Virus record (IMG/VR): IMGVR_UViG_3300010370_000144
Span: 1 to 32,071 of that record
Source of the DNA: a virus
Length of the DNA: 32,071 bases
Strand: one strand, 5' to 3'
Part shown: piece after piece, positions 1 to 31,150 of the stretch
Position numbering within the stretch: position 1 is the first letter of the stretch
Layout: each line of letters opens with the position of its first letter
The notes under the pieces: generated by a model
The model's input: the letters and a program-made list of their open reading frames with translations, nothing else
Told to the model about the DNA's origin: nothing
The model's database searches: none
Translations under genes and position numbers: made by a program

Positions 1-3000
1 AACTATGATTTGTGCTCTGCCATCATCAAGAATTTTAATCACTGTTCCCAAACAAGACATATATTCTTGAAGTGTAACATCATTTTTATTTTTAGCTACT
101 CCAGTTATTTCTCCAGTTTCTGTTACACTTGGTATAATTAATTGACCTGGAGTTGCTCCATAAACATTGACTGGAACTTGACCAGAGAATGCGATTCTAT
201 CAATTCTTTGACGAACTTCTTCATATTCAACATCATATAATGCCTTTTGAGCTAAATAATCTTCCTCATTGTCAAAATCCCTTCTTTCTGGGCAAGGAAT
301 ACTAACTTCTTCGTGCCATGCATCTCCACCAACAAAAGAAGGATCCGTTGATTTAACTACAAAACTGATTGAATTGTTGTAAACATTAGTAAGAAGTCCT
401 GTTGTAGTAATTCCACAAATATCACCTTTGGCAATTGCAAAATCACCATCTTTGAACATATATTCTGCATAGTCAGCACCAGAAGCATTAAGAGTGCCAG
501 CAGCATTAAGAGATCTTAGGGTAACTGCCGCTCTTCTTATATAACCAGTGGCATTAGCAGCGTTGTAATTGATAGCTGACGCAGCTTCACGAATTTGAAA
601 ACTGTCCCTAGTGTTGTCAGCACAATAAAGGATGCTATTTGCATTATCAGAATTGGGACTGGTAAAGTTTGCTCTATCAGCATTAACCTGACTAGTTATA
701 GTACAGTTTCCACTGTCATCCATTTGTAGTGACCAAGAACCAGAACTATTCAGGAAACCAATTTGACTGGAGTTGGTTGCACAAACGTAACCACGAATTG
801 TTCCTGCATATTCATCACGGAATCTGAGCCAGTTTACTGATGTTCCTCCAGCAATATTCCACCCATCATCGTCATCTGAATAGAAGTGTTGAGTGGTTGC
901 TTCATTATAAAAACCTTCGCCAGAGTTATAGTTACGGAACCAATCATCCGCGTAGAAGTTAGTAGCGCGAACATTCTTACCAGAAGAATCCCAAGTATAA
1001 CCATCAAGAGTATCAGCATCTAAACCAGATCCAGCACCATCATTACCAGTGTGCCAGACTTGATAACTTGAAGAAGAAATTAATAGATTTCCTGCCCTGA
1101 ACGTTCCATCGACTTGAGGTACACCACTAGAATTATATTCGCCCCAGTTCATATAACCATTGGCACCCATCCAGAAGGACTTGGAAACTCTTCCAGCCCA
1201 GTGGAAGTTCAGGTTTGGAGAGTCTCTATCCTCCCCATCACCAGCACTCGCCGCACCTCTTTCACGAATAGAAATAGGAGAATTAAAGTAATCATCGTTA
1301 TTGGTCAAACTGGTGTAACAAGTCAGCATCGCACTGGACGTACCAGCAGCATCAGACCTTAAGAACTGAGAACTATCAAGACCATCAAGAGTTCCTGCAT
1401 CATAACTTGTAGAACCTTGAGGACCCTGTACACCTTGAGGACCCTGTGGACCTTGAACACCTTGAGGACCCTGTGGACCTTGAACACCTTGATTTCCTTG
1501 AGCACCTTGAGGGCCTTGAACACCTTGAGGACCTTGAGGGCCTTGAACACCTTGATTTCCTTGAGCACCTTGAGGTCCCTGAACACCTTGAGTACCTTGA
1601 GGACCTTGGACACCTTGAGGACCTTGAGGACCCTGTACACCTTGAACACCTTGAGGACCCTGTACACCTTGAGCACCTTGAGGACCTGTTGGACCTTGAA
1701 CACCTTGAGGACCTGTTGGACCTTGAACACCTTGAGGGCCTTGAGCACCTTGAGGGCCTGTAGGACCCTGAACACCTGTAGGACCTTGAACACCCTGAGC
1801 ACCCTGAGGGCCTGTTGGACCCTGAACACCTTGGGATCCTGTAGGACCCTGAACACCTGTTGGGCCTTGAGGACCAGTAGGGCCTGTTGGGCCTTGAGGA
1901 CCAGTAGGACCTGTTGGACCTTGTACACCATCAGTACCTTGAGGACCCTGAGGACCAGTAGGGCCTTGAACACCCTGAGCACCTTGAGGACCTGTAGGAC
2001 CTTGAACACCCTGAGGACCAGTAGGGCCTTGAACACCCTGATCACCCTGAGGACCTGTAGGACCTTGAACACCTGTAGGACCTTGTACACCTTGTATACC
2101 TTGATCACCCTGAGGGCCCTGAGGACCTTGGACACCCGTAGGACCTTGTATACCCGTAAGACCTTGAACACCCTGAGGACCTGTAGGACCTTGAATACCC
2201 GTAGGACCTTGAATACCTGTAGGGCCTTGAACACCCTGATCACCTTTATCGCCAGTTCTAGCAAAGGTAACAATTACATCTTCACTACTTGAGAATGAAT
2301 TTACGCCAGATAACTTAGTAACAGGAATTTTGAAGTATCCTGTAGCTTCTGTACTAGATCCATCAATACTAAAAATTGCAAAATCATCAGCATTAAGTCT
2401 ATTTGAGACTCTTACGTGACCCTTAATCGTTGATGTAGAATCATCAATTACTCTTAAGAAATCTTGAATATCGGTTCCATTATCATCGGTATCGTCAATA
2501 AACATCTGCGTTGCAGATGATAAAGTGAGATTATTAAACTTTACACCACCTGTTCCTGGGTCAGTATCACCAGTATCCGTAGAGAATGTATAATCAAAGG
2601 TGGCTCCACCAAAGTTACCATCAGGGCCTTGAGCACCTTGAGGTCCCTGAACACCTTGAGTACCTTGAGGACCTTGGACACCTTGAGGACCTTGAGGACC
2701 CTGTACACCTTGAGCACCCGTTGGACCCTGAGGACCAGTTGGACCCGTTGGACCCGTGTTACCCTGAGGGCCCGTAAGACCTTGGACACCTTGAGAGCCC
2801 TGAAGACCCTGAACACCTTGATCACCCTGAGGGCCCTGTACACCCTGAGGACCTTGAACACCTTGAGGACCTGTAGCACCTTGTACACCTTGAGGGCCTG
2901 TAGCACCCTGAGGGCCTGTTGGACCTTGTACACCCTGAGCACCTTGAGGACCCGTTGGACCTGTGTCGCCCTGAGGACCTGTAGGCCCTGTTGGACCTGT

Positions 3001-4236
3001 AGGACCTTGTACACCCTGAGCACCTTGAACACCCTGAGGGCCTTGAGGACCTTGAACACCTGTAGGACCCTGTATACCCTGAGCACCTTGTACACCTTGT
3101 ATACCTTGAGCACCTTGAGGGCCTGTAGGACCCTGAACACCTGTAGGACCTTGTATACCCGTAAGACCTTGAACACCCTGAGGGCCTGTTGGACCTGTAG
3201 GACCTTGTAAAGATGCATCAGGAATCGATTCCCATCTGACACCAGATCCAGTAGAAACTAGAACTGAAGTTCCAGCACCAGTGTTTCCAAATACGTCAAT
3301 CAGTGCAGCATCAAGTTCTACATTTCCTTGGAATGTAGAAACACCAGCTACCTTAAGATTTGGTGTATTAATAGTTTTTTCGTTGAACTGGATTTCACCA
3401 GCAGCAAAATAAACTCCATTGGGAACTAATGTAGATCCAACACCAACTGCATAGTTTGATAACCAGGCATCTGTTGTACCAGCGCCCATGGTATTACCCT
3501 TCACCCACATGAACTGTTTGTAGGTGTCGGGCAAGCTATTAATACCTGCGACTTGGAGTGGTACTAATGGATTTCCCTCTGTTGAAGCGACTGCAATACC
3601 ACCGTGGTTTGCAGTGGTATCAGTGGGATCTGGGTCTCCAGTTGTACCAATACCAAGAACAAGGTCCTTATCTTGGATATTTAAGTTTGTAACATTAATG
3701 ATGGTTTCTGTGCCATTAACCGTCAAATTACCTTCGATTACTACATTGTTGTGGAAGGTAGCTGAGGTATCATAAACATCAAACTGGGTTTGAACATCAA
3801 GAGTTTGAATGGTTGCAATACCAAGATTAAGACTTTCAGAAAGTCTAATAGATGCAATGCCAGATGTTGGTTGTGTAAGAGAAAAATTCTCATAGAAATC
3901 TAATGTGGTGTTTGTTCCTCCAGCACCTACATCACTTCCATCTTGTCTTACAAAAATGGCATCAAGAATACCCGCACCAACATCTGTAACTGGTTTCCAC
4001 GTCCAATTACCTGTTGGACCACCAGATGCTAAAACATAATTGGCAGTTCCAGCACTATCACTATTGTCGTAAATTCTTTCTCTAATTCTTACTTCACTAG
4101 CAACATCAAGATCCCTAGTTGCATTAGTTGTCCCAATGCCAACTTTCCCAGTAACATCAAGTACTGTATCGTTTTCAGTATAAGTTCCTATGCCAATAGA
4201 AAGATCTTTTTGACGCTTACTGAGATACTTTGACAT
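1..4236 (-). CDS. Tail fibre protein with two collagen-like domains (3' end cut by window edge)
   Basis: The frame is open from ATG at 4236 to base 1, giving at least 1412 residues with no stop, so the C-terminus lies outside the window. Residues 1-344 are a beta-rich shaft with the cyanophage fibre phrase [15 protein letters not shown]. Residues 345-540 and 662-941 are almost uninterrupted Gly-X-Y triplets (about 65 and 93), mostly G-P-Q, G-V-Q, G-P-T and G-A-Q, separated by a 121-residue globular insert. After [16 protein letters not shown] comes a mixed domain, then a C-terminal tip with [20 protein letters not shown] and EYMSCLGTV, a tip common in marine phage fibres. The likely role is a triple-helical fibre for host recognition. 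The shaft and tip assignment is family knowledge; the exact receptor role is inference. There is no strong ribosome site; the gene starts 10 bases after the previous stop. Confidence 0.85.
1414..2253 (-). repeat. Collagen-like Gly-X-Y repeat region 2
   Basis: About 93 consecutive Gly-X-Y triplets of the fibre gene (residues 662-941). At DNA level it is a run of near-identical 9-base units of the type ACCTTGAGG on the plus strand. Position X is mostly Pro, Val, Ala or Ile and position Y mostly Gln or Thr. The low complexity keeps several other frames open, which produces spurious ORFs on both strands. Confidence 0.95.
1559..1645. repeat. 87-bp perfect direct repeat, copy A
   Basis: Identical base for base to 2627-2713, 1068 bp away. 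The offset is a multiple of three, so both copies are read in the same frame of the fibre gene. The copies lie in different collagen-like domains. Confidence 0.9.
2617..3204 (-). repeat. Collagen-like Gly-X-Y repeat region 1
   Basis: About 65 consecutive Gly-X-Y triplets of the same fibre gene (residues 345-540), with the same unit types as the second region. It begins right after the phrase [10 protein letters not shown] and ends at GPDGNFGG. Confidence 0.95.
2627..2713. repeat. 87-bp perfect direct repeat, copy B
   Basis: Second copy of the repeat at 1559-1645. Matching stops at 2626 (g against t) and 2714 (g against a). Confidence 0.9.
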
Positions 4237-14568: not shown

Positions 14569-15503
14569 TATTCTTTCCTCCCATAGTCGTGGCCAGAGAT
14601 TGAATATTGTGTTGGATCTCCAGGGTAATCAGATGGTGTTTCCCCATCATATTCAACAATCAAAGGTTCACCATCAATTCTAGCTGCCTCAATCTTATAG
14701 TAACAATGAATTGAGGATCCTTGATTGTTTTTAACCATCACTTTTCTTCCCCATTCAATCTTATCAACGTACAATTCTTGATAAGATCCAATAGGTGTTA
14801 AATGAACAGAAATTGTTTCTGGGTCAACTAAACCATCCCAGTATTCTGGAAGTTCAATCAAGTTAGATCCCTTAAGAGTTCCTCTAATATAGATTGCAGC
14901 TTCTGGACCTTCTACACAAATGTGACGAATACGTTTATTTGGTTTCTTTGGGTGTTTAATATCAAAACCTTTCCAAGCCTGGGAATTGATAGTGCCCTGA
15001 ATTGAACCAGTAACGGTTAAGTTACCAGCAATGGTCATATTACCAGCACTAGTTCTATTTGGTGCAGCTTCCTCGATATTTGGTTCGGACTTCGTTGTGC
15101 CTCCAGTTTCTACACCCTTTCCAACCTTGTTGAACGTTCCAAGGGTCTGTTTTAATCCAAAAGAGAAATCACTACCAAAAGCTTGTTGAAAATTGTAGGT
15201 ATTAAGAGTGCCATACATATTTGCTGCAACTGGTGCAATCACATTCATTCCAATTTGAGGATGAACGACGTGAATAGATGCTAATGATAAAGGACCCGAT
15301 GTTGGTGGGTTGGGACCAATATGCAAAGTACCCAAAGGAACAGGTGCTAAAGGAGCAACACCCATCTGCACTGGACCGTTAAGAATACTCAGTCCACCAT
15401 TAAGAGAAAGACTATAAGGTAATATTTGTGCCTTCGTAATTCCAGCAGCTACTTGAGACCCTACGGTAAACCTTGGTCCGTTAAGAGAAGAAAAACTAGA
15501 CAT
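14568..15503 (-). CDS. Virion structural protein with conserved C-terminal fibre domain
   Basis: 311 residues. Residues 1-100 are Pro/Gly-rich, residues 150-172 carry a shaft-like repeat (MTIAGNLTVTGSIQGTINSQ), and residues 180-300 form a domain with conserved phrases FDIKHPKKPNKRIRHICVEG, ELPEYWDGLVDPETISVHLT and DYPGDPTQYSI. That C-terminal domain is common at the ends of cyanophage fibres and in some giant-virus proteins. Its chemistry is not established to my knowledge. The start overlaps the upstream stop (TAATG). The role is likely at the tail tip or a fibre next to the hub. Confidence 0.75.
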   Translation of the reverse strand: MSSFSSLNGPRFTVGSQVAAGITKAQILPYSLSLNGGLSILNGPVQMGVAPLAPVPLGTLHIGPNPPTSGPLSLASIHVVHPQIGMNVIAPVAANMYGTLNTYNFQQAFGSDFSFGLKQTLGTFNKVGKGVETGGTTKSEPNIEEAAPNRTSAGNMTIAGNLTVTGSIQGTINSQAWKGFDIKHPKKPNKRIRHICVEGPEAAIYIRGTLKGSNLIELPEYWDGLVDPETISVHLTPIGSYQELYVDKIEWGRKVMVKNNQGSSIHCYYKIEAARIDGEPLIVEYDGETPSDYPGDPTQYSISGHDYGRKE

Positions 15504-16093
15504 TATATTCCAGAGAAAGATTTTGCAATGTTGGTAAGTGTATCGGTTAAAGATGATGTTCCAAAATCAGCCGCCTGAGCGAGGTTTAGAACACCAGAAA
15601 CAATTTCACCATAACCTTTACCAACCAAAGAAAAGTCTTTTGAAGCAAGAAGTTTAAGTTGTGTGCCTTCAAGTCTAAGATCGGGTGCCGTGATCGTTAT
15701 GTTTTTATTGGATTGCATCAAGATGTCGCCATCATTAGTATCACGAGTTCCATTGGCCTCAATGATAATATTATCCGCTTTTAAAATAAGATCTCCATCA
15801 AGGGCTTCAATGACAATATCACCATGTTTAGCTTGAATAATCTTCGCACAGTTCAGTGGGTCTTGAACATCTGTTTTAACCTTCTTGATATTCTGGCCCA
15901 AAGATTCAACCGATCTACCAGTTGCAACCATCTGATGATCTTCACTTGTGCCATTTTGATACCAACCATGACCAGAACCAAGATTGGTCAAAACACGGTG
16001 ACTTACAACACCGTATGGAGAGTTCATGCCACTCTCCATACGATATCTTCTCTTTTCGTCAATATCAAAATCGCCCTTTTCTGCGTTTGGCAT
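15503..16093 (-). CDS. Beta-rich spike-like protein next to gp5
   Basis: 196 residues. Residues 80-150 are regular short beta repeats (GDIVIEALDGDLILKADNII and onward), the style of the beta-helix or beta-prism spike of T4 gp5 and VgrG. Because the preceding gp5 lacks such a tail, I infer that the spike is encoded separately here. The first 30 residues are polar and contain two alternative ATG codons (M19, M23), the second with an internal GGAGAG site. A 12-bp perfect inverted repeat covers codons 18-28. The start overlaps the gp5 stop (TAATG). Confidence 0.7.
   Translation of the reverse strand: MPNAEKGDFDIDEKRRYRMESGMNSPYGVVSHRVLTNLGSGHGWYQNGTSEDHQMVATGRSVESLGQNIKKVKTDVQDPLNCAKIIQAKHGDIVIEALDGDLILKADNIIIEANGTRDTNDGDILMQSNKNITITAPDLRLEGTQLKLLASKDFSLVGKGYGEIVSGVLNLAQAADFGTSSLTDTLTNIAKSFSGI
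16012..16042 (-). other. 12-bp perfect inverted repeat around an internal start codon
   Basis: The arms CGTATGGAGAGT and ACTCTCCATACG are fully complementary with a 7-base loop. In the mRNA one arm contains GGAGAG and the loop contains ATG (M23 of the spike-like protein), so the hairpin could control an internal start. Confidence 0.45.
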
Positions 16094-18297
16094 TATTTAC
16101 TTACACAATTGATTACTTTAACGACCTTGGTTGGATCCAGAGGTTGAGACAATTCAGTTACCTTAGTAAACTTAAGAACTGCACTCAAATCTGCAGCAAT
16201 ACCAGTCTCACTATTTATTCTAATATCTGGAATTGAAGTAAATCCAGTGCCAGGATTGATAACTTCAACATCCAGAATCCTACCACCAATAATAATTGGT
16301 CTCAGTTCTGCGCCACCACCACCACCAGCAGCAACACCAGTATTGTCAACGACAGTGATTGTATCTCCAGGATTATATCCAAAGCCTGGATTTAGAACTA
16401 GAACGTCATCAATTTGACCGACTAGTTCATCAATCTGGTCCCCAGTGGCTGGCGTGCCTGGAATGACACCCTCAGTTGTAATTACATCACCAAAGTCATT
16501 GAGATAACCATATCCAGTATTTTCAATTATAATTTTCTCAATAGTACCATCATCCGCAATTACTGCAGAAGCTTGCGCACCGGCACCATTATTACACGAA
16601 TCTTGAATAGTTACATATGGTGGTTTTTCTGGAGAATAACCAAAACCAATATCGGTTACATTGACACCAATAATTTCACCAAGATTGTTGACAACTGCAT
16701 CTGCAGCTCCACCTACACCATCACCACCAAAGATCTCAACTGTCGGTGGACCACATTGCAAAACATCAGTAATACATCCACCAACTTGTGCTGCGACCTG
16801 ATCTGCAGTGGCTTGTTCTTCTGGTGTCAACGCAAAGATACTATCAACACCACTAGAAGCCTCATCTAACAAACCACCAACAGTCTGTGTTGTTTGACCG
16901 TTTTCATCAACAGAAGTAGTGATGTTTAGAATAGACATACTATTGAAGATTGCATTAGCATCATCCCTTTCTTGTTGGGTTGGACCATATGCATTACTAA
17001 ATGATGAAGGAAGTGGACACTTTTTCTCATCACAACCGATGAACTTATAGACGATACCAATATAATTTAATGCCTCATTAATAATCGTATTTACATCACC
17101 AAGAGCACCACCAAGAGTTTGATTAAGAGTATCAAGAATTGGTCCAATTGCTTGCTCCATATCACTCTGGAGTTTGTTCATGAGTGCGCCCATGAACTCT
17201 TCTGCAGCACAAATAGGTACATTGACAATGTTACCGATAAGTGCGAATAGTAATTCTGTAATTGTCGTCAACAATGCCTTGATGAGATTTTCAAAGATAC
17301 AATAAATTGTATCCATGGTCTCTTTATTAGCCTCACCAAAAATAGGAACAAGTTCATCTGCAAGTGTGGTTCCAATAAAACTCTTAATACTATCACCAAT
17401 TAGTGAGAACAAATAATCACGAACCTTATCAAACACCCCAGTCATGATCTTTGCAATCTTACTAGCAATCAAGGTGATTTCAGCATTAAGATCAGTAAGA
17501 GCGTTTGTTACACCATTCACATAAAAATTTGCATACCCTTGCACAGTGAGAAGATACTCAGTGAGATCTGCAAGTGCATCAGTGATCTCTGCAATCGCAC
17601 CATCTTTTTTACATGTTGGTCTGGTAGTCTTTATGCCCAAGAAAGTATGATGTGCGGCTGCGGCATCACCAAGACCTTTTACCGTAGAAGGTTCGTTAGT
17701 TTTTGTGGGTCTAACAGTTACATCTCTTGTCAGTCTACCAGTAACAGGATCTCTTACATACGTGGGAGATTTATTGGTCGTTTCTGGAATTGGTTCCTTT
17801 GTAGCAATATTAGTACCAGCCTGTTCCCCTGTGGGAACTTGTTCCATTGAAGCTAAAACACCTGCACTATTGACATCCTTTGGTGCAGATCCTTTGAGTG
17901 GTGGTTGTTCATCGAACGCTCTCTTGTGTCTATAGAAGACACCAACAATGCAAGGTTTCTGTTCATCCTCTCCGTCCATCCAGAAACCAAAAACAGACTC
18001 ACCACCTTCTAACATGTGAGTGTGTTCTTTAAATCCATAACCAGAGGCCATCATTGGAGATACCAAAATGTTGGCCCAAGGAAGTTGGTTTGGATCTTTA
18101 ATATTATCGTGATATCCTACTACCTTTACTTTTACGCGATTATAATATACATCAATCTCTGGGTTGTTGGATTGTATTCCAACTTCTTTATCATTTGTAA
18201 GAAGTCCGCTACCAGCCCAAGCAGATCGGGGAGCGACAACCCCGATCCACCAGTGTACCTTTTTACCAAAATCAGCAGAACGCTCAAGTAAATCCAT
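16093..18297 (-). CDS. gp5: Baseplate hub protein gp5-like (OB-fold, no lysozyme domain)
   Basis: 734 residues. Residues 14-120 match the gp5 OB-fold pattern: HWWIGVVAPRSAW, then RVKVKVVGYHDN, LPWANILVSPMM and SVFGFWMDGEDEQKPCIVGV. In T4 this domain sits on the gp27 trimer at the tail tip. Residues 225-480 are mostly helical. Residues 520-720 hold four copies of a G-x-G-[YF] unit (IGFGYSPEKP, NTGYGYLN, NPGFGYNPGD, NPGTGFTSIP). The T4 lysozyme domain is not present; a lysozyme-like domain is found in the 525-residue tail protein instead. A late promoter box lies 20 bases upstream. Three downstream genes follow with one-base overlaps. Confidence 0.85.
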   Translation of the reverse strand: MDLLERSADFGKKVHWWIGVVAPRSAWAGSGLLTNDKEVGIQSNNPEIDVYYNRVKVKVVGYHDNIKDPNQLPWANILVSPMMASGYGFKEHTHMLEGGESVFGFWMDGEDEQKPCIVGVFYRHKRAFDEQPPLKGSAPKDVNSAGVLASMEQVPTGEQAGTNIATKEPIPETTNKSPTYVRDPVTGRLTRDVTVRPTKTNEPSTVKGLGDAAAAHHTFLGIKTTRPTCKKDGAIAEITDALADLTEYLLTVQGYANFYVNGVTNALTDLNAEITLIASKIAKIMTGVFDKVRDYLFSLIGDSIKSFIGTTLADELVPIFGEANKETMDTIYCIFENLIKALLTTITELLFALIGNIVNVPICAAEEFMGALMNKLQSDMEQAIGPILDTLNQTLGGALGDVNTIINEALNYIGIVYKFIGCDEKKCPLPSSFSNAYGPTQQERDDANAIFNSMSILNITTSVDENGQTTQTVGGLLDEASSGVDSIFALTPEEQATADQVAAQVGGCITDVLQCGPPTVEIFGGDGVGGAADAVVNNLGEIIGVNVTDIGFGYSPEKPPYVTIQDSCNNGAGAQASAVIADDGTIEKIIIENTGYGYLNDFGDVITTEGVIPGTPATGDQIDELVGQIDDVLVLNPGFGYNPGDTITVVDNTGVAAGGGGGAELRPIIIGGRILDVEVINPGTGFTSIPDIRINSETGIAADLSAVLKFTKVTELSQPLDPTKVVKVINCVSK

Positions 18298-18317: not shown

Positions 18318-18324
18318 TATTTAT
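18318..18324 (-). promoter_or_regulatory. Late promoter-like box (ATAAATA) for gp5
   Basis: ATAAATAAC on the minus strand, directly after the cp12 stop codon and 20 bases before the gp5 start. The position in a non-coding gap makes it one of the better late promoter candidates here. Confidence 0.65.
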
Positions 18325-18325
18325 C

Positions 18326-18538
18326 TCAGTCATCATAAACTCTGCACTCAGATGCATCGGGATGACTGTCACAATATAACTCAAGTGGTGTGGGATCGTG
18401 TGTCTCACCAGGATGATTTTCTTTATAGGATTTCAGTGCTTCTAATTCTTCTTCCGTATGACGACGAGCCTGTGGCGAAATGGTAGGATCGCTCAGGAGT
18501 TCTTCATCTTGTTGGATGTGTTTGTCGATGTTTTCCAT
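18326..18538 (-). CDS. cp12: CP12-like Calvin cycle regulator
   Basis: 70 residues. The C-terminus (LELYCDSHPDASECRVYDD) carries the CP12 signature, with two cysteines eight residues apart (C56, C65) and the CRVYDD end that binds GAPDH. In cyanobacteria CP12 bridges GAPDH and phosphoribulokinase and switches off the Calvin cycle in the dark. Phage CP12 is a known auxiliary metabolic gene thought to push host carbon flow towards the pentose phosphate pathway. The N-terminal cysteine pair of many host CP12s is absent, and the usual AWDxVEEL region is replaced by HTEEELEAL. It sits alone between hub genes, with no ribosome site; TAAATAG at 18558-18564 might be a weak late promoter. Confidence 0.85.
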   Translation of the reverse strand: MENIDKHIQQDEELLSDPTISPQARRHTEEELEALKSYKENHPGETHDPTPLELYCDSHPDASECRVYDD

Positions 18539-18561
18539 TTTTATGTTTCGTATTGAACTAT

Positions 18562-19857
18562 TTAACTAGAAAGAAGATTTGTATCTTGTTTCTTACTCAT
18601 CCCATATGTGTCACGAATTAGTCTAAGATGAGTGAAAGCTTGATCAGGTTCCCATGAATGTCGAAGATCTTTAACAAGATACATCCCCGAACGATCATTG
18701 TCAATACCATTGTTACTATTCAACAAATTGACTTTCACTGGAGACCCGGCTTCCAATTTAACGTCCAGATTATATGGAATGGTAATTCTTAATGAAATAG
18801 TCTTCATTGACAAATACTTCATTCTGGATTGAGTTATAACCTTGTGTGGGTTGAATTCACCATTTCCAACATTGTCGTATGAGATCTTACCATCCACATT
18901 CATTGTTCCATCTACAAAAAACTGAACGGATTGAAATCCACCGTTTTCATTTATACCAAAATCAAGTTCATCAATACCATCACCAAAGTGAGTTTGTCTT
19001 TTTGCAACCTCATTCCAGTTTAAATTTTGACCAACTGGTTCTCCAAGAGAGAAGACATTATAATAGTTAGCTGCGTCATTATAGAGTCCTTTCTGCATCT
19101 GTTCGATAATATCCTGATCTCTTTCAAATCGTGGATTATAGATGTTGAAGTTTGATGTAGAGGCAGTTTCATCTATAACTTCAGATTGGGTAAATTCAAG
19201 AACACTCTCTTCTTTACTACGTTGAGCTAACGCATCAACACTCTTAAACATATATCCACCCTTAGTCATCCAGAATAAGAACCCAGCTCTATCCGTTCCA
19301 GTTCCATCAGTGCTACCCACTGTAGATAGAGATCTCTTACATAACCAATAGATTGCTTTGAATGGTGTCCAGTAATTACCATAGAATCCATCTGCATTTG
19401 CAGTGTCTTCAACAAAAATATTATTGGTTGTCTTTAGATTTGACAACAAGATTGTATTAACATGAGTACTAATCTTTGTAGTATTATCAAATCTTGTTGT
19501 CAGTCTATTCTGTTCGTTAAGGAACGCATCTGCATGAGTGAATAGAACACGGAACACAGTTGCAGTCGATGTCGTGTTTACTTCAGACATACCACCAATT
19601 CTAAGATTATCAAACTTCAAAATTCCACTTGGATGAGAGACACTCAAACTAGCTCTCTCAGTTCCTCTAGCTCTCATAAGTGATATAACTTTTTCCGTTG
19701 CAGCAAATGTTGCAACAACAGTAATTACTGGTTCAAAAATACTCTCACCATAATCAAGTGAAAGTAACGTTGTAATCTCACCACCGACCGAATATGGTAC
19801 ACCTTCGCGGCTATAAATCGTAAAGTCTTTTACTACTGCACTTTTGATGTAAGACAT
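18562..19857 (-). CDS. Probable baseplate hub subunit, gp27-like
   Basis: 431 residues, mostly beta, with the phrase YWTPFKAIYWLCKRS near residue 170 and GYMFKSVDALAQRS near residue 210. A helix of this kind recurs in gp27 and gpD-type hub proteins. The order next to the gp5-like gene fits the T4 gp27-gp5 complex, and the length is close to T4 gp27 (391). The C-terminus (GSPVKVNLLNSNN, then GMYLVKDLRHSWEPDQAFTH) also has the look of hub proteins with a closing beta barrel. The call rests on context and a few motifs, so it is moderate. The start shares a base with the upstream stop (TAATG). Confidence 0.55.
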   Translation of the reverse strand: MSYIKSAVVKDFTIYSREGVPYSVGGEITTLLSLDYGESIFEPVITVVATFAATEKVISLMRARGTERASLSVSHPSGILKFDNLRIGGMSEVNTTSTATVFRVLFTHADAFLNEQNRLTTRFDNTTKISTHVNTILLSNLKTTNNIFVEDTANADGFYGNYWTPFKAIYWLCKRSLSTVGSTDGTGTDRAGFLFWMTKGGYMFKSVDALAQRSKEESVLEFTQSEVIDETASTSNFNIYNPRFERDQDIIEQMQKGLYNDAANYYNVFSLGEPVGQNLNWNEVAKRQTHFGDGIDELDFGINENGGFQSVQFFVDGTMNVDGKISYDNVGNGEFNPHKVITQSRMKYLSMKTISLRITIPYNLDVKLEAGSPVKVNLLNSNNGIDNDRSGMYLVKDLRHSWEPDQAFTHLRLIRDTYGMSKKQDTNLLSS

Positions 19858-21560
19858 TAGCCGACGATGTAATAGATTTCTTGAATTTCTACACTAGTAT
19901 CTATACCCAAGGAAGCGATATCCATTGATAGAGGAGTTGCTCTAACAGAACTTTGTGGTCCACCAGGCAAAATAGGTTGGTTTCCAGGAACACCAGTTGG
20001 ACCAACATCTAACGGTTTAATATTCAATGGGGACATTTTTGATGATCGTATTACATCACTAATTTTGTCACTATATTTCGAGAATGTTTCTTTTGGTAAG
20101 AGTTGTTTATTAAGTAACTCTTTGATCAATAAATCTGGATCTAATCCAACTTTCTTATGATAGTTCAGGATAAATCTAAAGGCTTCATCATCAATCTGTG
20201 TTGGAGCGTCACCAAGAAGTCCTATTTGTCTCAATATTTTTTCATACAATCCATAGTTAGGAGTTCCATCACCTTTTTTGGCACTCAACAAATAATCCAA
20301 AAAGCCATTTCTAACTTCAGGATGATTGAGTTGCATATAATTTCCAATAGTTCCAGGAGGTGCAAGACCCCTACCCTGAGTACTTTTCAAAACATCAATA
20401 GCATCATCAATCTGAGATGCACTGTACTTATATGGCCCAAATAGTTTATTTGGATCCACAGTTTTCTTCGAAACAGTAGTACCAGACTGACCAACGGCTT
20501 TCTTTGTAATCTCTTTAGCAGGTCGGACGATTGGCCCAGGTGGTGATGGAACAAGAGAGGATTGTGGCATCACCATACTCCCAAGAGTTTCCTGTTGGGC
20601 CCTCAAAGCTTCAGGCATGTCTTTGAACGCTTGTCTTCTTGCCGCCTCAGCTTGAGGAGACATTGGTGTTTCTAGTTGTTTAACTAGGTCATCCATTTGA
20701 GCCTGACTCGTTCTAGGCGCAACCTGGCTAGGTCTCAGTGGTTGAGGTTTTGGTAGTCTTAGAGGAGCTGGTTGAGGACCGATTGGAATGTCACCATATG
20801 TTGATAATCTGGTTGCGGCTGCAGTAGTTCCACCTTCTCCAAGTAATCTTTGTGCAAGTCTTTGAGATCCTGGGCCCAAAACTTTAAGTAAAGTTGGAGA
20901 AATAGCAACTAATCCTCTAAGTCCTGCACCACCAAATCCAGCGGTCGGGTCTATCGCCATCGCAGTTCCTGGTTTTTCTATCAGGAACTTTTCTAGATCC
21001 TTTGCAACTGTTGTAAGTTGTCTATCGAAAGATTTTGCAACCGCAAATTCAGGAATACCCTCAGGCCATCGACGTGGCCACCAGATAGGTGGCCATGGCC
21101 ATTCCCACTGAGGTTTTTCTCTAGTTTTTGGTTTTTCTTTTTCTTTTTCTTTTTGTTTTTGTTTTTGGGTCTGGGTTTGAGTTCTTGGTTGCGTCCGAGG
21201 TTGAGGAACTCTTACAGGAGGAGTTTTGGGAAATTTAGGAAACTTGATCCTTGGGAACTGAAATCCACCTTCAGGAATTAGTTGTCTATCTGGAAAGATG
21301 TTACCTGCTTCACCAAATTTCTCAGGAATGATTGGAATAACTGTCTTCAGTCTCCTATCAAGATCCATAATCTTGTTAAGATCTGAGTTTGTTTTTTTAG
21401 TATCTCTTCTTAATAAATCTACAATCTGGGATGTTCTTTGACTTGCAGTTCTTACAGAACTAGCCAAATTACTAATTTCCGTCCCAGTAGCACCACCCAA
21501 CTGATTTACAGCAGTGTCTCTTTGCGATGCTGTTAAGTCTGTTAATGGATTGAATTTCAT
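19857..21560 (-). CDS. Large tail-associated protein with low-complexity linker
   Basis: 567 residues, not recognised. Residues 1-75 are helical (heptad-like). Residues 113-168 are very unusual: a Pro/Arg/Thr/Gln run, alternating Gln-Lys and Glu-Lys, then a Trp/Pro-rich stretch (WEWPWPPIWWPRRWPEG). Residues 200-230 are Gly/Ala-rich and mildly hydrophobic, and residues 400-520 are helical. Near the end is SMDIASLG (residues 545-552), a motif also in the neighbouring 525-residue protein. The final IQEIYYIVG is hydrophobic. The position between hub and gp26-like genes suggests an inner tail or tape-measure-related role. There is no clear ribosome site. Confidence 0.6.
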   Translation of the reverse strand: MKFNPLTDLTASQRDTAVNQLGGATGTEISNLASSVRTASQRTSQIVDLLRRDTKKTNSDLNKIMDLDRRLKTVIPIIPEKFGEAGNIFPDRQLIPEGGFQFPRIKFPKFPKTPPVRVPQPRTQPRTQTQTQKQKQKEKEKEKPKTREKPQWEWPWPPIWWPRRWPEGIPEFAVAKSFDRQLTTVAKDLEKFLIEKPGTAMAIDPTAGFGGAGLRGLVAISPTLLKVLGPGSQRLAQRLLGEGGTTAAATRLSTYGDIPIGPQPAPLRLPKPQPLRPSQVAPRTSQAQMDDLVKQLETPMSPQAEAARRQAFKDMPEALRAQQETLGSMVMPQSSLVPSPPGPIVRPAKEITKKAVGQSGTTVSKKTVDPNKLFGPYKYSASQIDDAIDVLKSTQGRGLAPPGTIGNYMQLNHPEVRNGFLDYLLSAKKGDGTPNYGLYEKILRQIGLLGDAPTQIDDEAFRFILNYHKKVGLDPDLLIKELLNKQLLPKETFSKYSDKISDVIRSSKMSPLNIKPLDVGPTGVPGNQPILPGGPQSSVRATPLSMDIASLGIDTSVEIQEIYYIVG

Positions 21561-29639: not shown

Positions 29640-30229
29640 AGAACTTTCTCCTTCAGGATTTTTCTATAACGAAGCACGTCAATATTTAGAAATGAACCAT
29701 ACTTCTTAATTTTGAGGGAAACCGTACTCCAGATTGGATCATCCAGTTTCTTATCAAAGTGTTTTACGAAACCCAAAATCTTATCCAGAATGATTAAAGT
29801 CTCAATTGAGATCTCTTTTCGCAGATAAGACTTCAGGATTTTCGGATGTTGGCCTTCAGTATGGAAGTAACTGTCGAAATTATCTCTTGTAAAGATTGTT
29901 TCAACTTCGTTTCCGAATAGGTAGGACAAGGATTGGTTTCGTTTTTGCCATTCCTTGAAGTTGGTTTCTCCATTTTGAATAATCTCTCCTATCCAGACTT
30001 TACCAGGATCTTCACTAGAAATAAAGTTTGCAATGAAATACTGTAGGATTTCGTCATCATCTTTCTTCCGTGACATCCTCTCAAAAAAATATCTGTCACG
30101 TCTCTTGTTAAAAGACGCAACAGATGCACGGGATTTTCCACCGTATTTTACATAATCATAATTATCCTTGGTGAAATGTTGTTTCATCGCAAGATAGGTT
30201 TTGTAGCAATCAAATGGTGACACTTTCAC
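29636..30229 (-). CDS. gp59: Loader of replicative helicase, gp59
   Basis: 197 residues (T4 gp59 has 217). Matches to the family include CYKTYLAMKQHFTKDNYDYV, FNKRRDRYFFERMSRK, NFISSEDPGKVWIGEI, and ETLIILDKILGFVKHFDKKL ending with IKKYGSFLNID. gp59 binds gp32-coated forks and loads the gp41 helicase. Its location two genes before gp32 agrees with T4 order. It overlaps both neighbours by four bases (ATGA). Confidence 0.88.
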   Translation of the reverse strand: MKVSPFDCYKTYLAMKQHFTKDNYDYVKYGGKSRASVASFNKRRDRYFFERMSRKKDDDEILQYFIANFISSEDPGKVWIGEIIQNGETNFKEWQKRNQSLSYLFGNEVETIFTRDNFDSYFHTEGQHPKILKSYLRKEISIETLIILDKILGFVKHFDKKLDDPIWSTVSLKIKKYGSFLNIDVLRYRKILKEKVL

Positions 30230-30483
30230 AATGGCAATCGTGCGCGTGATGTACGTTTGAGGAAGTTGAGTTCAATGGCTTCAGCCTTGATCTTTTCTTT
30301 AAGTGGTTTACTGATCAACTTCGCAACTGATTCTAACTCAATCTTGTTATCTTCACAATAATGAACAATCGCATCAATATAATTCAGGTCATTATTGTCC
30401 CGAACCAGTTCTTCGATATCCTTAGTGAATTTTGTTTGACACAAGAACTTTTCTTTGAGTGCCTTATCCAGGTCTTTATTCAT
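30226..30483 (-). CDS. gp33: Late promoter transcription accessory protein gp33
   Basis: 85 residues from ATG 30483 (MNKDLDKALKEKFLCQTKFT, then LNYIDAIVHYCEDNKIELES and AEAIELNFLK). In T4, gp33 bridges RNA polymerase and the sliding clamp to activate late promoters together with gp55. The late boxes in this window would be its targets. The ATG overlaps the exonuclease stop by eight bases, and there is no ribosome site, so coupling is likely. An in-frame TTG at 30504 is possible but less likely. Confidence 0.82.
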   Translation of the reverse strand: MNKDLDKALKEKFLCQTKFTKDIEELVRDNNDLNYIDAIVHYCEDNKIELESVAKLISKPLKEKIKAEAIELNFLKRTSRARLPL

Positions 30484-31150
30484 TGGAGAGCTTATGAGTA
30501 ACAAATTCTTTAATGTAACGAACTAGAAGTTTAATATACTCGTCTTTGTTTCTTTTGTCAAATACTTTAACTTCACCAGAAGAAGTTGTCATAATTGTAA
30601 TCAACTTCTTAACTGGAATATCAGTCATCTCATAGTACATACATGCGTATGCAGTTTCCTGAACGAAGTAGTTCTCTAACCACTTCTCTGGTTTAATTTT
30701 GTCTGAAGTTTTAAAGTCAATGATAGCAAGCTCGCCATCGTACTCCGCAATACAATCAACACGACCAGCAATACCGAAATACTCAGAATAAAGGGTACGC
30801 TCAATAGCATGTATGTTATCAATGCGATCAAGGAACGGTTTGGCGGAGTGGAACATGAACTGAGTTGCTGGGAGGTGGTTATCCCAGAGGAGTTCCTTAC
30901 CTTCAAGATAAGACTGTGCCGCTTCATGAAAATCAGTACCTCTTGTCGTGGCTTTTTTTGTAATACGATTGGCTTCTTCTTCACCAATCTTCTTTCTCCA
31001 ATCAATAAATGTTTGACGATTATAGAAAGAGGTGACTGAAGTGATTGAAGGCACCCAGTCACCAGTTGGAAGAAGATAGAGACGACAACCGTTGGTTTCT
31101 TTTTTCTCTAGTTCAACATCACCCAGATAATTATGATAAGTTCTTTGCAT
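30476..31150 (-). CDS. PD-(D/E)XK exonuclease (RecB/Cas4-like)
   Basis: 224 residues. Catalytic pattern: H75 in GTDFHEAAQSYL, E117, D132 in GIAGRVDCIAEYDG, D145-x-K147 in LAIIDFKTSD, and Q164-x3-Y168 in VQETAYACMY. This layout is that of RecB-family exonucleases, close to the mitochondrial MGME1-type group. It is next to gp33, gp59 and phoH, so a role in DNA recombination, repair or host DNA degradation is likely. No Cas4-type cysteine cluster is present. The start shares a base with the phoH stop (TAATG). Confidence 0.85.
   Translation of the reverse strand: MQRTYHNYLGDVELEKKETNGCRLYLLPTGDWVPSITSVTSFYNRQTFIDWRKKIGEEEANRITKKATTRGTDFHEAAQSYLEGKELLWDNHLPATQFMFHSAKPFLDRIDNIHAIERTLYSEYFGIAGRVDCIAEYDGELAIIDFKTSDKIKPEKWLENYFVQETAYACMYYEMTDIPVKKLITIMTTSSGEVKVFDKRNKDEYIKLLVRYIKEFVTHKLSNE

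Follow-up and report, generated by a model that had tools for sequence, protein, structure and literature searches.

A CP12 gene between baseplate hub genes of a T4-like cyanophage, and the genomic sites and late-type promoter motifs of its relatives

The DNA considered here is an IMG/VR virus record of 32,071 bases, referred to throughout as the window, and its gene content is that of a T4-like cyanophage. Pfam and PHROG families identify gp27-, gp5-, gp26-, gp19-, gp4-, gp2-, gp48/54-, gp53-, gp32-, gp59-, gp33- and PhoH-like genes, the T4 names being our reading of the family descriptions. Between the gp27-like and gp5-like genes of the baseplate hub lies the small gene cp12, with a late-type promoter motif or a near-match to one on either side (Table 1).

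Table 1. Features of the window that bear on cp12, with positions, strand and supporting details
Feature	Position	Strand	Details and evidence
cp12 coding sequence	18326..18538	-	ATG start, 70 codons, 70 aa; ORF call, Pfam, PHROG, tblastn
C-terminal segment of CP12, residues 50-70 (TPLELYCDSHPDASECRVYDD)	18329..18391	-	Cys56, Pro60, Cys65; aligns with the tail of CP12 in solved structures
Predicted N-terminal helical hairpin of CP12, residues 4-41	18416..18529	-	no cysteines; Pro-containing loop DPTISPQ; AF2 model
GTTAAATA, near-match to the late promoter NATAAATA	18559..18566	-	starts 28 nt before the cp12 ATG; one base off (second base)
GATAAATA, exact match to NATAAATA	18318..18325	-	directly after the cp12 stop codon; starts 28 nt before the gp5 ATG
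gp27-like baseplate hub protein, upstream of cp12	18562..19857	-	phrog_350, tail protein, E 1.2e-64; Foldseek
gp5-like baseplate hub / tail lysozyme, downstream of cp12	16093..18297	-	phrog_1922, baseplate hub subunit and tail lysozyme, E 4.9e-109
gp33-like late promoter transcriptional regulator (T4-type late transcription system)	30226..30504	-	phrog_254, E 1.7e-30

The product of cp12 matches the Pfam CP12 profile PF02672 over residues 2-69 (E 1.1e-13; 52.1 bits against a curated cut-off of 22.7), a profile that also matches all 48 aligned CP12 members, and it falls within phrog_627 (E 1.1e-28), a family without a functional name. A sequence-only reading of the window had called the gene CP12 and had named a profile search as a possible refutation; the search instead places the protein inside the family. 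No NCBIfam family was matched, plasmid sequences gave no match, and in a scan of genome contigs the only match was a chance one to a Solobacterium MAG (37%, 43 aa), with no cyanobacterium. CP12 relatives are present in 372 of 50,697 phage records (tblastn, E<=0.01), and cp12 is under strong purifying selection (median dN/dS 0.037 for the 38 pairs with 0<dS<2, from 90 tried); the open reading frame is therefore not a chance one. It is a well-formed phage CP12 gene in a recurrent place, and the protein itself is an expected one.

The hub genes that the sequence-only reading saw on either side of cp12 are likewise supported by the families in Table 1. For the upstream neighbor, the AF2 model is of low confidence (mean pLDDT 55.7) and its rank 1 Foldseek match is 2z6b_D, from T4 (gp27-gp5)3 (E 7.5e-13); a sequence profile of the protein found no gp27 among PDB sequences, and the gp27 likeness comes from fold comparison only. 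The hub operon also contains a 567-aa protein, at 19857-21560(-), that has no Pfam or PHROG match at 0.001; in relatives, the protein at this place carries a hypothetical, endolysin or carboxypeptidase annotation.

Translation confirms the sequence features first noted for the protein: it ends in ECRVYDD, its only cysteines are Cys56 and Cys65, and it has no AWD. The missing N-terminal Cys pair and AWD had been taken as an oddity of this phage, a view that does not hold, because exactly two C-terminal cysteines and no AWD or WD are found in 97 of 97 phage CP12s (the window, 16 isolate loci and 80 IMG/VR loci). Within the phage copies examined, lack of the N-terminal pair is a trait of the whole family. 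In the window protein the CxxxPxxxxC element consists of Cys56, Pro60 and Cys65, and C56, P60, E64 and C65 are invariant in the 91 sequences that are 70 aa long. Other members of phrog_627, such as those of S-SRM01, S-T4, Syn9 (gp17) and P-HM2, resemble the window protein in belonging to a 70-75 aa class with two C-terminal cysteines and no AWD. The closest isolate CP12 is that of S-SRM01 (74% identical), but its gene is at another genomic site, and IMG/VR relatives reach 96% identity.

Canonical cyanobacterial and plant CP12s (6gfo/6gve, which we take to be T. elongatus CP12, and 6kez, presumably Arabidopsis CP12-2) have the C-terminal CxxxPxxxxC in common with the window protein. They also have an N-terminal Cys pair and AWD_VEEL, whereas the window protein has no cysteine before residue 56 and no AWD_VEEL core, and it lies outside the canonical N/C class. 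AWD_VEEL is the canonical element that contacts PRK (PMC11257934), and it is possible that this CP12 binds phosphoribulokinase differently. A review (PMC3906501) counts cyanophages as exceptions to the CP12 layout of three features, with a resemblance to the C-terminal region, and places at least one classical CP12 copy in every cyanobacterial group but the marine picoplanktonic one. The N-terminal pair is also absent from Synechococcus elongatus CP12, yet the ternary complex forms (PMC9406205), and in Synechocystis a CP12 mutated in the N-terminal pair still complements, while a C-terminal-pair mutant does so far less (PMC9623430).

At the level of structure, the C-terminal segment matches PDB sequences of CP12 tails (3zdf_C residues 3-23, E 3.7e-5; 6gfo_E, E 9.7e-6). 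The AF2 model of the whole protein, built from 48 sequences, has a mean pLDDT of 89.4, with helices at 4-16 and 22-41 and two short C-terminal helices. Its rank 1 Foldseek match is GAPDH with full-length CP12, at an E-value of only 0.27, and among the matches listed by VIA-align there was no CP12 chain, only unrelated generic hairpins with Z up to 5.3. The N-terminal helical hairpin is a prediction only, of a kind common among unrelated proteins.

We consider it likely that the gene encodes an ordinary phage CP12 with the C-terminal pair only, whose tail would inactivate host GAPDH, whose N-terminal part would lack a redox lock, and which would shift metabolism toward the pentose-phosphate pathway, with late-type transcription in a recurrent hub slot. 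From homology, we infer that the conserved tail (CDSHPDASECRVYDD) most likely folds into the photosynthetic GAPDH of the host and keeps the enzyme inactive. The N-terminal part, as a predicted hairpin that needs no disulfide, would have no N-terminal redox lock, and the upper half of CP12 would therefore depend less on oxidation. The expected effect is a lower Calvin-cycle draw on NADPH and ATP and a higher pentose-phosphate flux for phage nucleotides. CO2 fixation is reported to stop at ~4 h with S-PM2, which has no cp12, versus ~2 h with S-RSM4, which has the gene (PMC10452541); because fixation also stops with S-PM2, cp12 is not needed for the shut-off.

The place of cp12 among hub genes had also been read as an oddity, and it turns out to be recurrent. 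In 13 of 17 isolates, which were hand-chosen rather than randomly sampled, the gene lies between the gp27-like tail protein gene and gp5, in some of them accompanied by cpeT, tRNA genes or further inserts (S-T4, DSL-LC03, S-PRM1, S-SZBM1, S-RIM50, S-CREM1, S-SCSM1, DSL-LC02, P-SSM4, Syn19, S-SM2, S-RSM4 and Syn9). In print, a 2010 comparison describes cp12 positions as variable, 'near gp5' being among them (PMC3037559). The four isolates with cp12 outside the hub slot are S-SRM01, where its cluster is ~40 kb from the hub genes, S-TIM5, P-HM2, where it is beside talC, and P-TIM68. The gp27-gp5 junction is empty in P-SSM2 and in P-HM2, in which position 14775 marks both the end of the gp27-like gene and the start of gp5. 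In S-SRM01 and three further genomes (G001, G003 and G004) 25-78 nt separate the alignments of the gp27-like and gp5 proteins, with no cp12 there; the gap is shorter than the 213-nt gene, and there is thus no room for it.

The closest 80 of 248 IMG/VR loci were sorted by their neighbors (tblastn, E<=0.01), a small-gene cluster being recognized by a match to at least one cp12 neighbor of S-SRM01 or of its relative L026. On this basis 11 loci are at the hub, 67 are in the small-gene cluster and 2 (L029 and L087) are in neither; L093 (P-SSM4) also matched a small-gene query, but its annotation puts it at the hub. Close relatives therefore carry cp12 at two sites, of which we found no published statement.

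The late promoter of cyanomyoviruses has been given as NATAAATA (PMC2984593). Set against a T4-type late promoter (correctly spaced TATAAATA/NATAAATA), the motif before gp5 in the window is exact, whereas GTTAAATA, before cp12, differs at the second base; the gp27-like gene ends on the TAA within it. Of 20 hand-picked gene starts in the window, 7, including those of gp26, gp19 and gp5, have the shorter form xxTAAATA 22-45 nt upstream, against a random expectation of 0.23 on average, and none of 2000 draws reached 7. Because of this enrichment, and because a gp33-like regulator is encoded, GTTAAATA is a plausible candidate for a late promoter. In P-HM2 (NC_015284.1), by eye, xCTAAATA rather than NATAAATA precedes gp18, gp20 and PHM2_102, which suggests some variation in the second base of cyanophage late promoters. 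For phage Aeh1, CTAAATA is given as the putative late promoter, again with a different second base (PMC1524935).

Across the 24 hub copies, window included, the exact motif precedes cp12 in 4, the TAAATA core is present in 14, and 10 have no core within 18-50 nt. The window shares with L011, L033, L037, L043 and L055 a core 26-27 nt upstream of cp12 and, where cp12 stops, an exact NATAAATA before gp5. The motif takes in the TAA stop of the gp27-like gene in the window, L011, L033, L043 and L055, and also in S-RIM50, P-SSM4, Syn19 and S-SZBM1, where the motif is exact; the TAA is outside it in L037, S-CREM1, S-RSM4, S-PRM1 and Syn9. We infer that cp12 in the gp27-gp5 slot is most likely under late-type transcription, either from GTTAAATA or by read-through of the hub operon, and that gp5 would be served by its own late-type motif just downstream of cp12.

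The motif is clearest in the small-gene context. There, NATAAATA, exactly as in the late promoters of S-PM2 and Syn9, is located 27-34 nt before the cp12 ATG in all 67 testable copies (66 from IMG/VR plus S-SRM01). The set holds 46 distinct 60-nt leaders, and since the loci are related, the count represents conservation and not 67 independent events. Among the 26 small-gene loci of at least 10 kb, NATAAATA precedes cp12 in 26 of 26 and other ORFs in 2 of 578, the latter figure being depressed by any false ORFs or wrong starts among the mechanically called set (ATG, at least 60 aa, same strand). In 20 of the 26 loci the cp12 motif is the only one on its strand. The small-gene region (loci among L012-L090, and L001) is otherwise poor in late-type promoters. 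From these sequences, it would appear that many such cyanophages put cp12 under late-type control. Among the papers listed for cyanophage CP12, late promoters and late genes, no title or opening of an abstract describes a late-type promoter on cp12, although other papers may well contain such a description.

The arrangement can be compared with lambdoid morons, a moron being an ORF with its own promoter and its own terminator. Small-gene cp12 is alike in that it comes with a late-type motif of its own, and a terminator-like hairpin follows the gene in 28 of 68 loci, compared with 11 of 600 random stretches. The window copy is unlike a moron: such a hairpin follows none of the 24 hub copies, its own included, and its GC content (43.7%) is near that of the window (40.0%). 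In the hub context, cp12 is therefore not a moron by that definition.

There are also indications that cp12 has been exchanged among phages. By nucleotide identity, the nearest relative of the window cp12 is a small-gene copy, L013 (89%), while the hub-site copies L011, L033, L043, L037 and L055 are at 87%, 86%, 82%, 81% and 79%, respectively. The small-gene phage L026 has a cp12 that is 84% identical to that of the window, but its gp5 and gp27 are only 32% and 27% identical; L037, L043 and L055 have a backbone closer to the window (gp5 73-78%), yet their cp12 is less alike than that of L026. In a cp12 tree, the hub and small-gene contexts require at least 8 changes, and the starred branches alone force 2 to 3. 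This tree, of 210 nt, gives the window copy no firm position: the copy falls among 28 rows (23 small-gene, 4 hub including the window, 1 unassigned) with support of 90/89, on a branch that is not starred, and the bootstrap had not settled. Among 10 pairs listed with a value, dS for cp12 ranges from 0.76 to 2.5, and two more pairs are saturated. Because purifying selection inflates the amino acid identity of CP12 across backbones, the argument rests on nucleotide identity and context. As nucleotide identities cross backbone distance and the tree requires changes of context, the sequences indicate exchange of cp12 between sites as well as between distant backbones. The route could be either movement of the gene or conversion between two resident copies; no phage record has cp12 in two places (a single place in 372 of 372 and in 374 of 374). 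The best matches of the six hub leaders with a core to small-gene leaders are at 72-83%, against a mean of 62, a 95th percentile of 71.5 and a maximum of 75 for other leaders, which gives modest support to the idea that the promoter moved along with cp12.

We tentatively suggest, as a possibility that falls somewhat short of an even chance, that in T4-type cyanophages like the window and S-SRM01 cp12 is a small mobile unit of late expression (a late-type promoter plus the gene, often with a terminator), exchanged between distant backbones and two sites, with its late-type control kept or rebuilt. An implication would be that phage inhibition of the Calvin cycle matters late, when virions are built, and not only while nucleotides are made.

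There are other possible scenarios for cp12 at the hub. It may be a passenger, in a gp27-gp5 junction that tolerates inserts, with transcription that follows the hub operon and has no functional timing. This would fit the cpeT, tRNAs and 2OG oxygenase that the junction also holds in relatives, the inserts between tail protein and gp5 in S-SZBM1, S-RIM50, S-CREM1, P-SSM4, Syn19 and Syn9, the empty junctions of the six genomes named above, and the tight operon without a motif in L031, L032, L034, L036 and others. We consider the passenger scenario rather unlikely, however, because in the small-gene context every testable locus has a late-type motif for cp12 itself, where almost no other ORF has one. 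A further idea, that CP12 is part of the virion, enters with the hub and acts at injection, draws its sole support from the recurrent place between gp27 and gp5. It is highly improbable, given that 67 of the 80 closest IMG/VR relatives have the same protein encoded in a different cluster and that no structural feature of CP12 indicates a virion protein.

A different question is whether cp12 is a middle gene, as in P-HM2, with overlapping early and late elements, in which case NATAAATA would not signify a late peak. In P-HM2, cp12 has CATAAATA at -32, overlapping TTGACA, a sigma-70-like element, psbA has AATAAATA at -45, and the AMGs are published as exclusively middle (PMC5082946); since these two genes carry the motif and the AMGs are nevertheless middle, the motif alone does not mean a late peak. 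Overlapping early and late promoters were also proposed for middle transcription in S-PM2, although Q-PCR of a few genes showed no middle profile (PMC2984593). With hand-picked starts and grouping, the exact NATAAATA is found 18-50 nt upstream of 7 of 32 structural-module starts in P-HM2 versus 2 of 29 others (cp12 and psbA), and many P-HM2 late genes, such as gp5, gp19 and gp23, have no exact motif directly upstream. Against the comparison, P-HM2 cp12 adjoins talC and not the hub, and we regard a middle class for the window gene as possible, if somewhat doubtful. When cp12 is expressed, a question raised by the sequence-only reading from its place among late genes, is a fair question with a partial answer: many copies have late-type motifs in front of them, but the published class in P-HM2 is middle.

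The published model, derived from phages such as P-HM2 with cp12 beside talC, is that phage CP12 acts together with middle genes and feeds nucleotide synthesis. If the cp12 of hub-site and S-SRM01-like phages is indeed transcribed together with structural genes, the benefit must come later. For example, reductant and ATP might be held through assembly, or carbon fixation might be kept off after host transcripts decay. Syn9, a hub-site phage here, has a published transcriptome (PMC7238727).

Finally, we note that two other genes of the window, at 1359-2273(-) and 2541-3242(-), both match phrog_10175 weakly (E 8.9e-9 and 5.5e-6), and are perhaps tandem paralogues.
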